From Sulfuricurvum sp. (lineage in GTDB: Bacteria > Campylobacterota > Campylobacteria > Campylobacterales > Sulfurimonadaceae), in assembly GCA_024637215.1 (NCBI GenBank), contig JAGXFM010000078.1:1-50755 (forward strand): a stretch of 50,755 bases of DNA, written 5' to 3'. Within the stretch, counting starts at the first letter, position 1; each line of letters opens with the position of its first letter. The notes beneath the pieces are model-generated. The model searched no databases and was not told where the DNA came from. It saw only the letters and a list, made by a program, of their open reading frames with translations. The translations under genes were made by a program, and so were the position numbers. Of the stretch, positions 22,763 through 28,700 are shown one piece after another.

Positions 22763-24340
22763 ATGAGTTTATTCAATACTATTAAAGCAAAATTTATCGT
22801 CAATTTGATCGCCGCCGTAGGTGCTATCTTAATTAGTGTGATTGTAGCATACTTCATCGCCACCGGTTCGATCAAAACTATTATGATCAGCGACCTTAAT
22901 ACGGTTGCCGATGTGTTAGAAAAAAACGTTAACTATATCTCTAAAATAGAACCTAAAGCATACGAAGAAGAAGGGTTTAAAAGCGAAATAAAAGAGATCA
23001 AAATCGGTAAAAGCGGTTACGTCTATTTTATCAATGCCGAAGGGGTAATGACCATTCACCCGAAACCTGCGGATGAAGGGAAAAATAAATCGGGTCATGA
23101 TTACATCGATCATATCCGTTCGGACAAAGCGGGGGGAGTGTATGAATATACTTCGGCAACGACAGGGCAAGAGAAAATTGCCGCATACCGCTATATTCCG
23201 GCATGGGATATGTGGGTCATTCCCGGGATCAACAAGGCCGATTATTTCGATGAGCTCCAAGCCAGTTTTTTTAAATGGTTTTTGCTTCTGGGCTCTATTC
23301 TAACCGCTATGCTTATCGCGATTAACTACTTATCCGGTACCAGTATTCTTCATCCCATCGAAGAACTTGACAAAGTATCGGGTGATCTTGCTCACGGAAA
23401 CGGTGATTTAACGAAACGTCTGCCGATCCTTAACAAAAATGATGAGATCGGGATAGCGAGCAACTATCTCAACCAATTTATCGGTAAAATCCAAAGCACA
23501 ATCAATGATACCAAACAGATTACCTCAGCAGCAGTAGGCTCTACTGCAACTTTAAACAGCGCGGCGGCAAACCTCTCGACCCAGTCTGAAAAAACAAACT
23601 CTATTGCTCAAAATACCAATATCACGGCTGCAGAAATCGGTGTCACGTTGGAGCAAAGTGTCAATATGGCCAAAATGACACTTGAAAATAGCCGTTCTAC
23701 CGAAACAGAACTGAATCATGTTCGTGATATTGCTACCGCTATTACCAATGAAGTTCATAAAACGACCCAAATGAGCAATGAGTTAGGCGAACGCTTTGCG
23801 CAACTCTCAAGCGATGCGGCAAGTGTCAGCGGAGTACTTAGTATTATTTCCGATATCGCCGATCAAACCAATCTACTCGCCCTCAATGCCGCTATTGAAG
23901 CGGCGCGTGCCGGAGAGCATGGTCGCGGGTTCGCCGTTGTTGCGGATGAGGTCCGAAAACTCGCCGAACGTACCCAAAAAAGTTTGACCGAGATCAACTC
24001 GACTATCTCTATTGTCATCCAATCCATCTCCGATTCTTCCGACATGATGAACTCCAACAGCGAAAATATCGGACGGCTTGCCGAGCGAAGCGAAGAGATC
24101 GATGTGAAAATCGATTCCGCTTCGAGTGCCTTGCGTTCCAATGTTGATGCGAGCCATCAAAGCGTTCAGCAAGCTGAGAATATGGCACAAAAAATTCACG
24201 ACATCATCCAGAAAGTGTCTGAAATGTCGAGCCTTTCTCAAAGCAATCAAGAAGAGATCAAGCAAATTTCTAATATTGCCGCAGAGCTTTACAATGCCGC
24301 TACAAACTTGAATACCCAACTGGGTCAATTTAAATCCTAA
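22763..24340 (+). CDS. Methyl-accepting chemotaxis protein with Cache sensor domain
   Basis: A 525-residue chemoreceptor. TM1 is at about 11-33 and TM2 at about 168-190, with a periplasmic single-Cache domain between ([20 protein letters not shown], then [18 protein letters not shown]). A HAMP segment follows ([16 protein letters not shown]), then the methylation helices and the highly conserved signalling tip near residue 375 ([20 protein letters not shown]). The ligand cannot be read from sequence; Cache domains of this type commonly bind small organic acids or amino acids. No sigma-28 promoter is evident. A weak TTGGCT/TACAAT pair with 15-base spacing lies at 22706-22732. AGGA precedes the ATG. 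Confidence 0.95.
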
Positions 24341-24352
24341 ATAAAATCTAGC

Positions 24353-24358
24353 TATAAT
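24353..24358 (+). promoter_or_regulatory. -10 element at the start of the btuB leader
   Basis: A perfect TATAAT just after the chemoreceptor stop codon. It would start transcription near 24365, within a few bases of the 5' side of the long-range helix at 24368. No strong -35. Confidence 0.5.
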
Positions 24359-24367
24359 TCCCAAAAC

Positions 24368-24470
24368 TTTTGGGGAGGATAGCGATGCGTTCACCACGCG
24401 GATTCGGTAAAACATACTTTTCTCTTGTCGCTATCCAAGCGTATGCCTCACAGGTGCGCCTCCTCCAAAA
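24368..24470 (+). ncRNA. Structured leader RNA upstream of BtuB-like gene (candidate riboswitch or ncRNA)
   Basis: Two stacked long-range helices close this element. Bases 24368-24378 (TTTTGGGGAGG) pair with 24459-24470 as 11 pairs plus one bulged T. Directly inside, 24379-24385 (ATAGCGA) pair with 24428-24434 (TCGCTAT) for seven perfect pairs. A small hairpin GCGT/ACGC (24387-24399) lies within. The 24 bases at 24435-24458 form a third arm, so the fold is a three-way junction. It sits between a TATAAT and the BtuB-like gene. It lacks the cobalamin riboswitch core and B12 box, and no known class was recognised. The strand is inferred from the promoter; the complement would fold as well. Confidence 0.5.
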
Positions 24471-24538
24471 TATCACCCGCATAGAGCTAGTTGCTCCCGT
24501 TTGTCCTATCTATATCTATTCAGCTGTTTCTCCCCCTA

Positions 24539-24583
24539 AGAGTGTCCTACTCTCAACCATTATTACACTTATTCAAGGACACT
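24539..24583 (+). promoter_or_regulatory. Alternative hairpins covering the BtuB-like ribosome binding site
   Basis: AGTGTCC (24541-24547) is complementary to GGACACT (24577-24583), which contains the ribosome binding site (AAGGA) just before the ATG at 24585. The same upstream bases also take part in a local hairpin AGAGT/ACTCT (24539-24543 with 24549-24553). The two are mutually exclusive, as in a translational expression platform. Confidence 0.45.
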
Positions 24584-24584
24584 T

Positions 24585-26378
24585 ATGTACAAACACACCT
24601 TATCACTTGTCGCATCCGCGACACTCGTTGCCGCACTAGGGGCTAATACACTTCAACTTGATCCTATCGTAGTTTCCGCTTCCAAAACCGAACAATCTCT
24701 CAAAGATACCACCGCTAACATCGATGTTATATCCGCCCAAGAGCTCGAAGAAAAACATATCACCTCGGTTATCGATGCACTTAAAACTCTCAGCAATATT
24801 CCGATAGCCCAAAATGGGGGAATAGGAAGTCAAAGTTCATTCTTTCTTCGCGGATTTAGCTCTGAAAATGCCATCGTACTGGTTGATGGTATCCGTTACA
24901 ACGATCCCACTACCACCAAAGGGCAAGCACAGCTCGAACACCTCATGGTCAATGATATTGAGCGGATTGAAATCTTAAAAGGGGCGCAAAGTGGAATTTG
25001 GGGAGCAAACGCCGTCGCCGGTGTGATCAATATCATCACTAAACAAGCAACTGAAAAACTGCGGGTAGGTGCAACAGCAGAATACGGCAGCTACGCAACC
25101 ACAAAATTGGGGGCTAATATCTCCCAAAAAATCGACAACTTATCCTACTATTTCGGGGCGAATCAAATTAAATCCAACGGGTTTTCTTCGATAACACCAA
25201 AAGGGGGGAATCCTGAAGATTACGAAGCAGACGGTTATAAAAATGAAACGGTAAATGCAAAACTCAGCTACAATTTGACCTCATCTGATACCCTCAACGC
25301 ACAACTGAATTTTATTGATGCTTCATCTCAGTACGACGCTTACGCGCAACCTAACAGCGAAGCCAATGAAATTCATCAGATCAACCGTTTGGGAAGTATC
25401 AGCTACGAGCACCGTCTTAATCGTGAGGATTCGATCAGTGCCTCGTTCAGTATCTCTAGTTTTGATAAAAAAGATCCTCTCGGATATACCAAAGCATTTA
25501 TCGGGAATCACAAAGAGGGTTCACTTCAGGGGGGCTATCACTATGCTCCAAACGCCTTTTTGGTTGTTGGAGGAAATGTGCTTAATTCTAAAGATACCGT
25601 TAGTGCTAAAGAACTCGATTCAAAAGGGGTTTTCATAACTAACACAAATCGCTTGGACAATTTCATCCTTAGCGAATCGATCCGCCACGATACATACGAT
25701 ACGTTTGAGGATAAAACTACCGGAAAAATAGGGGCTAAATATAATTTTACAAATGATGTTTCGCTTAGCACCAATTACGGAACCGCCTACAGAACACCTT
25801 CGCTCTTTGAACTCTACGCAAGCTATTATGGGAATACCTATCTCCAACCCGAAACTACCAAAAGTTTCGACATCACGGGAAGCTACAAACATCTAAGTGT
25901 AACGTACTACAACAATCTAGTCGATAATTTAATCGGATCCGATCCATCCACCTACGTCTACGAGCAAGTTCATGGGAAATCACGCCTCAAAGGGTTTGAA
26001 CTCGCTTATAAAAATACCGTTGCAGCAGATTTAGTACTCGATCTTGGATACAACCGTCTTTGGGCTAAAAACCAAGATGACCAAAATATCCAGCGTCGGG
26101 CAAAAAATACGTTTCGAAGTGCTTTGGATTATTATGGAATTAACGAAGTACATTTAGGACTCAACACGCACTATATCGGAACACGCTATGATGATTTAGC
26201 ACAAACAAAACAAACAGGACGTTATACCCTATGGGGGGCAGTCGTTAATTATGAGGCGACCGAGAGTCTCAGTTTCTATCTTAAGGGAGACAATTTGACC
26301 GATAAGCTTTATCAAGAAGTAGAGGGATACGGAACTGCCGGACGAAGTTTTTATGTCGGGCTAAACGCACAATTCTAA
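24585..26378 (+). CDS. TonB-dependent outer-membrane receptor, BtuB-like
   Basis: A 597-residue outer-membrane receptor for active uptake of a scarce nutrient, driven by TonB. It has a signal peptide (about 1-20), a TonB box region (LDPIVVSAS), a plug domain at about 30-150 (FLRGFSSENAIVLVDGIRYN, then IERIEILKGAQSGIWGANAV) and a 22-strand-type barrel ending in an aromatic residue (SFYVGLNAQF). Size and plug sequence fit the BtuB group. The corrinoid substrate is inferred mainly from the operon, which includes cobyric acid synthase. It follows a structured leader. The stop overlaps the next start by TAATG. Confidence 0.85.
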   Translation: MYKHTLSLVASATLVAALGANTLQLDPIVVSASKTEQSLKDTTANIDVISAQELEEKHITSVIDALKTLSNIPIAQNGGIGSQSSFFLRGFSSENAIVLVDGIRYNDPTTTKGQAQLEHLMVNDIERIEILKGAQSGIWGANAVAGVINIITKQATEKLRVGATAEYGSYATTKLGANISQKIDNLSYYFGANQIKSNGFSSITPKGGNPEDYEADGYKNETVNAKLSYNLTSSDTLNAQLNFIDASSQYDAYAQPNSEANEIHQINRLGSISYEHRLNREDSISASFSISSFDKKDPLGYTKAFIGNHKEGSLQGGYHYAPNAFLVVGGNVLNSKDTVSAKELDSKGVFITNTNRLDNFILSESIRHDTYDTFEDKTTGKIGAKYNFTNDVSLSTNYGTAYRTPSLFELYASYYGNTYLQPETTKSFDITGSYKHLSVTYYNNLVDNLIGSDPSTYVYEQVHGKSRLKGFELAYKNTVAADLVLDLGYNRLWAKNQDDQNIQRRAKNTFRSALDYYGINEVHLGLNTHYIGTRYDDLAQTKQTGRYTLWGAVVNYEATESLSFYLKGDNLTDKLYQEVEGYGTAGRSFYVGLNAQF

Positions 26379-26938
26379 TGAAACTCTCATTTCGCCCCTA
26401 CCTCCGTTACAAATTTCTAAACGCCCTCTTCACCGGTATGGTGGGGGGATCGGTATTTACAATCTATGCGACCCTTAGCCCCTCGACATTCTCGATCGGG
26501 GGGATACTCCTCGCACTGGGGATGATGGGGATGGCATACGTGTATCATCGCCTGATGAATCTCCGTACTTTTTTCCGCTTTACTCTGGCTACCGAACTCA
26601 TCATGCTCCTTATGGTAGGGTATTATCTGCTGTTTTCCACTCATATTATGAGCGCTTTAATCATTTACGTCGCCTATCAGTTCTCCTTTATCTTCGGGGG
26701 GTATTTGGTACGAGCTGAAACCCATTTTGCCCGACATGCACGGATGATGGGATGGATCGATGTTGCTAAACAGCAAGGCTCTCTCGCAGGGCTAGCACTC
26801 TCGTACGGATTTTACAAACTCATAGAGCATTATGGAGTCATCAAAGCTTCAGAACAAGTCTATGATTTGCATTTTGTACTGTTTGCTCTGGAGGGGTTGA
26901 TTATTCTTGCTTTGCTCCGAGCGTTTAGGAAAAAATAG
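26378..26938 (+). CDS. Polytopic membrane protein between BtuB-like and CobQ genes, unknown function
   Basis: A 186-residue protein with about six hydrophobic segments (roughly 14-32, 38-56, 64-84, 88-108, 130-146 and 165-182) and a positively charged N-terminus and C-terminus. Between segments four and five is a cytosolic-looking loop with RAETHFARHARMMGW. I do not recognise the family. The six-segment layout is like half of a major-facilitator transporter, but no MFS signature is visible. It overlaps the receptor gene by one base, and cobQ begins immediately after its stop, so it is firmly in the corrinoid operon. No BtuCDF genes are in the window. An inner-membrane step in corrinoid transport is an attractive but unproven role. 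Confidence 0.7.
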   Translation: MKLSFRPYLRYKFLNALFTGMVGGSVFTIYATLSPSTFSIGGILLALGMMGMAYVYHRLMNLRTFFRFTLATELIMLLMVGYYLLFSTHIMSALIIYVAYQFSFIFGGYLVRAETHFARHARMMGWIDVAKQQGSLAGLALSYGFYKLIEHYGVIKASEQVYDLHFVLFALEGLIILALLRAFRKK

Positions 26939-28279
26939 ATGCGATCAATTTCCATTTTCGGCACCTCGTCTGATGCGGGAAAATCGACGCTCACCTTTGT
27001 GATCGGAAAACTCCTCCAAGAACGGGGGATCAACGTCGGGGTGTTTAAAGCTCAGAACGTTTCCAACAATGCTCATGTCTGCGACGACGGGTCTGAAATC
27101 GCCATCGCTCAGTATTTTCAAGCCGACGTATTAGGGATACCGACGAGCTACCACCTCAACCCGATCCTCCTCAAATCGGGGCATGGAAACAGCGCGTCGT
27201 TGATTGTAAAGGGGCACGTCGTGGAAGACAAAGAGGTGCGAGAGTATTACCGTGATCTCGATTCTCTAAAACCCGCCGTGGATGAGTGCTTTGAATATCT
27301 GAGTGAACGTTATGAGTGCGTAATATGCGAGGGGGCGGGGAGCCCCGTCGAGCTGAACCTAATGGAGAAAGACCTCTCCAATATCTACATCGCCGATACC
27401 TACGATACTAAAATCATCCTCGTCGCCGACATCGAACGCGGAGGGGTTTTTGCCTCGATCTGGGGGGTTTATAATCTCCTCCCCCAAAAGCTCAAACATA
27501 ATGTTATCGGGGTGATCATCAACAAATTTCGCGGGGATCGGAGTCTGTTTGACGAGGGGATTACGATCATTGAAGAGCGTTTTGGTATCCCTGTCCTCGG
27601 AGTCCTCCCCTATACCCCGTTCAACCTCGGGTTTGAAGACTCCCAGAGTCTGAAGAACTTCGTTCAAAACAAACCCAATCCCGTGAAAAAGATCGGGATC
27701 ATTAACTATCCCACGATGAGCAACTACAACGATTTTGAACCCCTTATCGCAAATGAGGAGCTTTTCGTCGAGTTTATCACCTCCAATGTTTCGCTGGAGA
27801 GTTTTGATCTCATTATTCTCCCCGGAAGTAAATTGGTCATAAAAGATTTACAGTGGCTGAAAAAAACAGGGCTGTTCGACGCACTTAAAGCGCGACAAAA
27901 AGAGATACTGGGGATTTGCGGCGGATATCAGATGATGTTTGAAACCATCATCGACGAGTGGTGTGTCGAAACCTCAGAACCGATGAGCGAAGAAGCTCTC
28001 GGGTTTGTCGATGACGTTATTGTCTTTCAAAAAGAGAAAATACTTAAAAAAGGGGAATACACCCTCTTCGGCAAAACGGTGAAGGGCTTCGAAATCCATC
28101 ATGGTGTGAGTACCAAATATCCGCTGTCGTATGAAAAGGGAAATATCAAAGGGACGTTTGTTCACGGAATTTTTGAGGATGAGGTGTTTAAAGCGTATAA
28201 GAAAAAAACGATTGATGCGTTTATGGAGACAATGAGAGGCGAGATCGATATGGAGAGGATTCTGAAACATGTCGTATAG
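26939..28279 (+). CDS. cobQ: Cobyric acid synthase CobQ/CbiP
   Basis: Glutamine- and ATP-dependent amidase that amidates four carboxyl groups of adenosylcobyrinic a,c-diamide. The N-terminal ATP domain has the modified P-loop GTSSDAGKSTL and the family motif KAQNVSNNAHV. The C-terminal class-I-like glutaminase domain has the nucleophile Cys in GICGGYQMM and the His motif GTFVHGIFED. The 446-residue length is slightly below the usual 480-510. The last 11 bases overlap the next gene. Its presence next to a BtuB-like receptor suggests salvage or late-stage synthesis of cobamides; early corrin-ring genes are not in the window. Confidence 0.94.
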   Translation: MRSISIFGTSSDAGKSTLTFVIGKLLQERGINVGVFKAQNVSNNAHVCDDGSEIAIAQYFQADVLGIPTSYHLNPILLKSGHGNSASLIVKGHVVEDKEVREYYRDLDSLKPAVDECFEYLSERYECVICEGAGSPVELNLMEKDLSNIYIADTYDTKIILVADIERGGVFASIWGVYNLLPQKLKHNVIGVIINKFRGDRSLFDEGITIIEERFGIPVLGVLPYTPFNLGFEDSQSLKNFVQNKPNPVKKIGIINYPTMSNYNDFEPLIANEELFVEFITSNVSLESFDLIILPGSKLVIKDLQWLKKTGLFDALKARQKEILGICGGYQMMFETIIDEWCVETSEPMSEEALGFVDDVIVFQKEKILKKGEYTLFGKTVKGFEIHHGVSTKYPLSYEKGNIKGTFVHGIFEDEVFKAYKKKTIDAFMETMRGEIDMERILKHVV

Positions 28280-28700
28280 AAAATGGTTCGACGCTCACGG
28301 CTTAAAACATCGTGTTATTATGGAGAAACTCACCCACCTCAGTGATGAGGAGGTGATTGTCTATTTTCGGTTTGAAAACATGGTCAAAAACGAGAGTGAT
28401 TTTTGCCCACTCTACGCGGAGAATAAAAAGTGCCACGATACGAAAGAACTTAACTGCTATCTCTGCGCTTGTCCCAACTTCCGTTTCAACGATCAAGGCT
28501 TTACGCGTGAGGGTGAACAAACCCTCTTTAGTACCTGCTCCATCGAGAGTCCTGAGGGGGATCGTTTTACGAGTGACACCGCCATCCACCAAAACTGTAC
28601 CGGATGTATCGTTCCCCACCGTGAGAGCTATATTAAAAAAATGTTCAATCGCGATTGGTTTAGCATAATGGAAGAAGTCCCCTCCGATAAAAACTTATAA
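28269..28700 (+). CDS. Cysteine-rich small-domain protein (corrinoid operon)
   Basis: A 143-residue soluble protein. Its core has the metal-binding pattern FCPLYAENKKCHDT, NCYLCACPNFRF, a Cys-Ser pair and HQNCTGCIVPHRESY. This matches a family known as the Cys-rich small domain, often found beside cobalamin genes. The clustered Cys and His residues suggest a zinc site or an iron-sulfur cluster. Exact function is unknown. It overlaps cobQ by 11 bases and ends the operon. Confidence 0.75.
   Translation: MSYRKWFDAHGLKHRVIMEKLTHLSDEEVIVYFRFENMVKNESDFCPLYAENKKCHDTKELNCYLCACPNFRFNDQGFTREGEQTLFSTCSIESPEGDRFTSDTAIHQNCTGCIVPHRESYIKKMFNRDWFSIMEEVPSDKNL

Follow-up and report, generated by a model that had tools for sequence, protein, structure and literature searches.

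We describe here a small open reading frame (ORF) in front of a btuB operon that probably acts in cis as a corrinoid-responsive nascent-peptide leader. Its leader peptide is encoded at positions 24385–24537 of the window, as we call the whole 50,755-nt stretch of DNA analysed, and we consider it likely both that it controls the operon it precedes and that a sister leader in front of metE works in the same way. The family of leader peptides to which it belongs probably does in Campylobacterota the job that cobalamin riboswitches do elsewhere. If this is true, nascent-peptide control, known for amino acids, polyamines, antibiotics, protein export and copper, extends to a vitamin.

The segment at 24353–24470 sits between a methyl-accepting chemotaxis gene (22763–24340) and the gene of a BtuB-like TonB receptor (Table 1). 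The initial annotation rightly placed it before a BtuB-like operon and found a TATAAT just ahead of its fold, and it overlooked the ORF that the segment contains, with its own Shine-Dalgarno sequence (SD) and ATG. Most aligned relatives have TATAAT or a near match at the equivalent place, and an SD-like purine tract upstream of the leader start is preserved in relatives. In the window the open frame of the leader overlaps btuB by 55 nt. The operon includes cobQ; two further proteins of the operon, of 186 and 143 aa and both unnamed, are found in the corrinoid operons of many relatives, and a homologue of the 143-aa protein gave a weak, sub-cut-off match to PF04071.

Table 1. Positions in the window of the leader, the hairpin, the genes of the operon and the fold described earlier.
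Feature	Position	Strand	Remarks
TATAAT, putative -10 box of the leader-btuB operon	24353–24358	+	Read directly
SD GGGGAGGA of the leader ORF	24372–24379	+	Strong SD, read directly
Leader ORF, 84 aa, MRSPRGFGKTYFSLVAIQAYASQVRLLQNITRIELVAPVCPIYIYSAVSPP...	24385–24639	+	ATG at 24385; conserved part stops at codon 51
Codons of the N-terminal module, P(R/K)GFGK(N/T)YF(S/T)LxAI	24394–24435	+	Family-wide in leaders
Ser-Pro-Pro codons, proposed ribosome arrest site	24529–24537	+	End of the conserved part of the leader
5' arm (anti-SD) of the hairpin	24540–24548	+	Begins 2 nt past the PP codons; p = 0.002 against shuffled arm
3' arm of the hairpin, AGGACACTT	24576–24584	+	Contains the btuB SD (AAGGA, 24575–24579); ends at the ATG
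BtuB-like TonB-dependent receptor	24585–26378	+	Best NCBIfam model TonB-B12, 327 bits, under the cut-off of 600
186-aa protein, probably membrane	26378–26938	+	Recurrent in corrinoid operons of relatives
CobQ, cobyric acid synthase	26939–28279	+	Above curated cut-off
143-aa Cys-rich protein	28269–28700	+	Recurrent in corrinoid operons of relatives
Three-way-junction fold of the initial annotation	24368–24470	+	Leader SD and start codon paired with the leader's own codons; close relatives only

The leader ORF evolves as a protein. Across 27 sequences of the window's genus, pN/pS is 0.21 in the leader frame as against 1.66–1.86 out of frame, and the differences among same-genus leaders number 9960 at third codon positions but only 3150 and 2368 at first and second positions. 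Among 100 relatives searched by BLAST, convincing matches to the segment came only from its own genus, where the peptide reads M(R/H/Q)(S/A)P(R/K)GFGK(N/T)YFSLxAIQAYASEVRLLQNITRIE, followed by LVAPVCPIYIYSA or WICPTHPIHTYST and then by (V/I)SPP. The two C-terminal versions, ELVAPVCPIYIYSA and (E/A)WICPTHPIHTYST (positions 24485–24528 in the window), are scattered over otherwise similar leaders (L001–L030), with L025 and L030 intermediate, a distribution that looks like exchange by recombination. Searches for known families gave nothing: ten leaders had no match in Pfam, three had none in NCBIfam, DUF2946 did not match three btuB-type and seven further leaders at E <= 10, and no tRNA or tmRNA was found. 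The conserved, information-carrying element is the peptide and not a structured RNA.

Leaders of this kind are widespread. A leader-peptide profile found matches in 190 of the 228 genomes of the family and in 17 of its 18 genera, and the N-terminal module is present in 41 of 68 genera across the phylum (in L152 and L153 the N-terminal profile matched a second time inside the leader frame; these matches were disregarded). Outside the window's genus the leader is 50–125 aa long; the N-terminal module is followed by a middle region that varies and is often acidic, then in many cases by a CHCNC(Y/F) motif, and SPP closes the peptide. CHC(N)C occurs in many btuB-type and in all metE-type leaders; the window's genus has this Cys/His motif in reduced form, and so do the short btuB leaders of Sulfurimonas. 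In nearly all genera of the family related leaders stand ahead of BtuB-like receptors of corrinoid uptake and salvage operons: 59 of 65 downstream genes group in two clusters of BtuB-like TonB receptors, sampled members of which fit the B12-receptor model best, and the operons of relatives continue with BtuF-, BtuC- and BtuD-like transporter genes and with CobT, CobU, CobS, CobC, CbiA/CobB and BluB. Three of the loci from the family search have metE downstream, and at two others the leader precedes an unidentified outer-membrane-type protein that is not a known B12 gene. Three same-genus leaders (L008, L019, L028) stand before a different subfamily of BtuB-like receptors with a nearly identical signal peptide. 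BtuB-like receptors of 625–706 aa from other Campylobacterota families (L189–L196) have the N-terminal module (as PKGFxxKYFSLAAI) at their own N-terminus. Leader and receptor N-termini look homologous, the latter probably being a signal peptide; the sharing of this module suggests that the leaders, too, may have an export-signal-like region there, in the manner of the CutF leader discussed below.

The association with genes of B12 uptake and salvage extends to metE, which was found in 113 of the 228 family genomes, the window's own genome (84% complete) not being among them. At all 25 metE loci with a located start, an HPP-ending leader lies upstream. The end of the metE leader reads, with variations, KPCHCxxFFxxKxxLxxLLNHFIPRCPFYTTYFAFRR(T/S)GVHPP, and some metE leaders share the N-terminal module of the btuB leaders. 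We collected 89 metE-type leader loci from Sulfurimonas, Sulfurovum, Arcobacter, Sulfurospirillum and other Campylobacterota, 80 of them with a pattern that included HPP and the others by profile or place searches; metE is directly downstream in 88, and the remaining contig ends too soon. The metE-type C-terminus occurs in 39 of 68 genera of the phylum, and further genera have divergent leaders with HCNC and PP before metE. Within the window's genus the two types have closely similar ends, HTDTSPP for the metE leader and HTYSTVSPP or similar for the btuB leader.

Both types of leader end their conserved part at two prolines, right after which comes a hairpin that sequesters the downstream gene's SD. 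In all 82 leaders that we scored, the btuB type having been chosen for a PP and the metE type for HPP, the residues ahead of the anti-SD arm are SPP, HPP, APP or DPP; SPP accounts for 53 of the 56 distinct btuB-type leaders with a located PP, three other btuB-type loci without PP having been left out of the scored set. Many different pairs of proline codons encode the PP in these 82 leaders, and its preservation despite such varied codons argues that selection acts on the peptide. Thus the leaders have what is expected of arrest peptides, namely consecutive prolines near the functional C-terminus that are kept as peptide. The stop codon lies 0–39 codons beyond the PP or is missing, the frame then entering the receptor; in L064, L074, L084, L095 and L097 the stopless leader frame continues in frame into the TonB receptor (~700–775 aa). 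In the window the hairpin has 9 bp and buries the btuB SD (p = 0.002 against shuffled arms). By the same comparison 32 of 56 btuB-type and 15 of 26 metE-type leaders, 47 of 82 in total, reach p < 0.05, and about 40% of leaders are without a significant SD hairpin; related leaders are non-independent tests, and Fisher-combined p-values, inflated by relatedness, are not used as evidence. The sequences of the arms differ by clade (anti-SD/SD pairs AGUGUCCU/AGGACACU, CUUAAACAU/AUGUUUAAG, UUAAUAAAAC/GUUUUAUUAA, AAUAUCC/GGAUAUU and UUUAUCCUUUAA/UUAAAGGAUAAA), and what recurs is their pairing and their place right after the PP. This hairpin, downstream of the fold noted initially and absent from the initial annotation, is the sole conserved RNA structure of the locus.

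Few riboswitches are as widespread as those for cobalamin, and btuB and metE are their classic targets. In the window, however, the cobalamin riboswitch family RF00174 had no match at either gathering or relaxed thresholds, and the genomes in which it exceeded the cut-off were just 1 of 228 for the family and 3 of 397 for the phylum, in a search whose stricter filters may have missed weak riboswitches and which 8 of 14 named controls passed. With cobalamin riboswitches nearly absent from the phylum, the leader family is a candidate for the missing B12 regulator of Campylobacterota. Two of the three real riboswitches of the phylum (L290/L297 and L291/L298) lie near an ORF of ~1450 aa, possibly CobN-like, and not near metE or btuB. 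Weak, sub-cut-off matches to the cobalamin riboswitch were also seen on the opposite strand beside leaders that precede an outer-membrane-type protein (L132 and L137 in genomes G243 and G245, L066, L070).

The mechanism that we infer is a ribosome arrest that allows expression of the downstream gene and that is governed by corrinoid. A ribosome translating the leader would pause at the C-terminal Ser-Pro-Pro and, while paused, would cover the anti-SD arm of the hairpin, so that the btuB SD would be freed and btuB translated. Were sufficient corrinoid sensed by the nascent chain, either directly or via a factor, the pause would be absent or released, the hairpin would reform and btuB would be shut off. 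The metE leader, ending in HPP, would act likewise, and a shared mechanism would place both classic targets of the B12 riboswitch under peptide control in Campylobacterota. Against the model count the btuB-type loci without PP, the leaders with no significant SD hairpin and the two loci with an outer-membrane-type protein downstream. So does the frame of the window's leader, which continues through the hairpin, meaning that a non-pausing ribosome would also unwind it briefly. Elongation factor EF-P might relieve pausing at (S/H)PP, a motif that differs from the proven RAPP/RGPP. A bolder version, which we put forward tentatively and with clearly less confidence, is that the nascent peptide itself binds corrinoid, perhaps through His/Cys axial ligands, and that stalling of the ribosome at Pro-Pro depends on this binding; this would be a peptide-based B12 sensor across Campylobacterota and, as far as we could find, the first of its kind. 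Our search covered the open-access literature, from which absence is not proof, and yielded no report that links an arrest peptide to B12, btuB or metE. The model gives direct predictions for in vitro translation.

Several known systems resemble these leaders, which would work like CutF and CruR but are a separate family, unrelated in sequence to DUF2946: (i) CutF of Rhodobacter capsulatus is an exported-type leader protein with a Cys motif and a proline-rich C-terminus, directly followed by an mRNA stem-loop that masks the SD of the downstream gene; its translation opens the stem-loop, and a copper signal switches the multicopper oxidase target on (PMC9973294). The B12-linked leaders are likewise of an exported type, with a Cys motif in many of them and prolines at the end, and the position of the leader directly before an SD-shielding stem-loop is the same in the window and in the 47 leaders with a significant hairpin; however, the B12-linked leaders have no DUF2946 match, and the signal (copper), the target (a multicopper oxidase) and the logic (metal meaning on) of CutF are different. 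(ii) In Bordetella pertussis, CruR is an upstream ORF (uORF) before a TonB-dependent receptor, with a CXXC copper sensor, an arrest at RAPP that copper relieves, and Rho-dependent termination in a 162-nt intergenic region (PMC9426467). Here too a uORF with a C-terminal arrest motif, putative in our case, precedes a TonB receptor that nutrient excess would presumably lower; in contrast to CruR, the motif is (S/H)PP with an SD hairpin starting 2 nt after the PP, and in place of the CXXC and RAPP that DUF2946-type proteins carry at conserved spacing the leaders have CHC(N)C and (S/H)PP, the window's leader being without CXXC. (iii) RAPP/RGPP arrest peptides (PMC12992588, PMC10951233) are small proteins with Pro-Pro near the C-terminus, encoded upstream of the gene they regulate, and their targets include TonB receptors; cobalamin, B12 and methionine synthase do not come up in the text of the survey. 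The B12-linked leaders have (S/H)PP and no RAPP, RGPP or RAGP core, and in the leader ends listed, where S, H, A or D comes before PP, RAPP and RGPP are absent. (iv) With the cobalamin riboswitch the leaders share the targets (btuB, metE, corrinoid transport and salvage) and the presumed off-with-B12 logic, but they have no RNA aptamer, the conserved information being the peptide. (v) Translated uORFs accompany the B12 riboswitches of metE and ppe2 in Mycobacterium tuberculosis, where the riboswitch senses B12 and the uORF modulates it (PMC11260477). The resemblance is that translated ORFs precede B12-regulated genes, metE among them, but at the Campylobacterota leaders no riboswitch was found.

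Given the likeness to CutF and the fact that both CutF and CruR sense copper, the peptide could instead be an arrest or coupling peptide whose Cys/His motif senses a metal, be it cobalt, zinc or copper, the B12 genes being controlled via metal supply. The occurrence of CHC(N)C in many btuB-type and all metE-type leaders agrees with this, as does MetE being a zinc enzyme; we nevertheless hold it unlikely, as corrinoid uptake and salvage operons together with metE fit corrinoid status and not any one metal, and the motif is reduced in the window's genus and the short Sulfurimonas btuB leaders. It is decidedly improbable that the ORF merely couples translation, with moving ribosomes holding the hairpin open so that btuB or metE is expressed and nothing is sensed. 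An SD hairpin between leader and gene, and an ORF that overlaps btuB in the window, are what such coupling would produce, but it would need neither strong amino-acid conservation at both ends, nor a conserved PP with a free stop position, nor a restriction to B12 targets. A stable small protein that works in trans, say as a corrinoid chaperone or a small membrane protein, would account for the conserved peptide, for the Cys/His motifs and for an N-terminal module like receptor signal peptides; we regard it as very improbable, for the leader is always immediately upstream of its target, its open frame often overlaps or enters the next gene, its length and middle vary widely, and a separate copy stands ahead of metE.

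For a structured regulatory RNA, whether a new riboswitch class or a small RNA, we see next to no chance: the segment has a low folding energy against dinucleotide shuffles and, in the close clade, a start region paired beyond codon-shuffled controls, but its substitutions follow codons, its long helices are mostly lost beyond seven close relatives, Rfam gives no match at gathering or relaxed thresholds, and other genera have quite different leader RNA with the same peptide ends. The fold itself is there. Positions 24340–24490 fold with a minimum free energy of -41.6 kcal/mol, which lies at z = -3.5 relative to 200 dinucleotide shuffles, and the optimal structure, in which 24368–24376 pair with 24461–24470 (one bulge) and stack on 24377–24386 paired with 24427–24436, with an inner hairpin at 24387–24399 and a third arm at 24439–24459, is essentially the three-way junction of the initial annotation. 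That annotation, however, judged the pairing very unlikely by chance, and this did not hold up: synonymous-codon resampling brings the z of the window to just -1.2, and 27 same-genus leaders average -0.49 under this codon-preserving control. The fold loses most of its significance when the encoded peptide is held constant and is mostly a by-product of the coding sequence; in its helices the V-A-I and L-L-Q codons of the leader pair with the leader's SD and start codon. Outside the group of seven close relatives, most pairs of the two long helices form in ~25–55% of sequences, and the score of the whole fold (60% paired, as against 37–48% for slid versions) comes mainly from pairs between invariant coding positions. 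The three-way junction is thus not kept past close relatives, the kind of loss that the initial annotation had itself named as refuting its structured RNA, and on the pair counts and the codon-preserving control we rejected this model. That the segment belongs to no recognised riboswitch class was borne out, with no Rfam family and no cobalamin riboswitch matching; the Infernal search that had been proposed returned 0 matches to Rfam 15 over the gathering score in the 50,755 bases. As for the suggested new corrinoid-responsive leader class, the corrinoid response is probably right in spirit, and the conserved element is the peptide in place of the structured RNA. The case points to a general pitfall, in that an SD and start codon paired with conserved coding sequence can mimic a new structured RNA. 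A local structure may still matter in the close clade, where the SD/start region of the leader is more paired than in codon-shuffled controls (p ~0.00–0.01 for six of seven members, 0.095 for L002); this excess makes a clade-specific initiation hairpin at the leader start (24370–24390 in the window) possible, perhaps as a second control of the leader.
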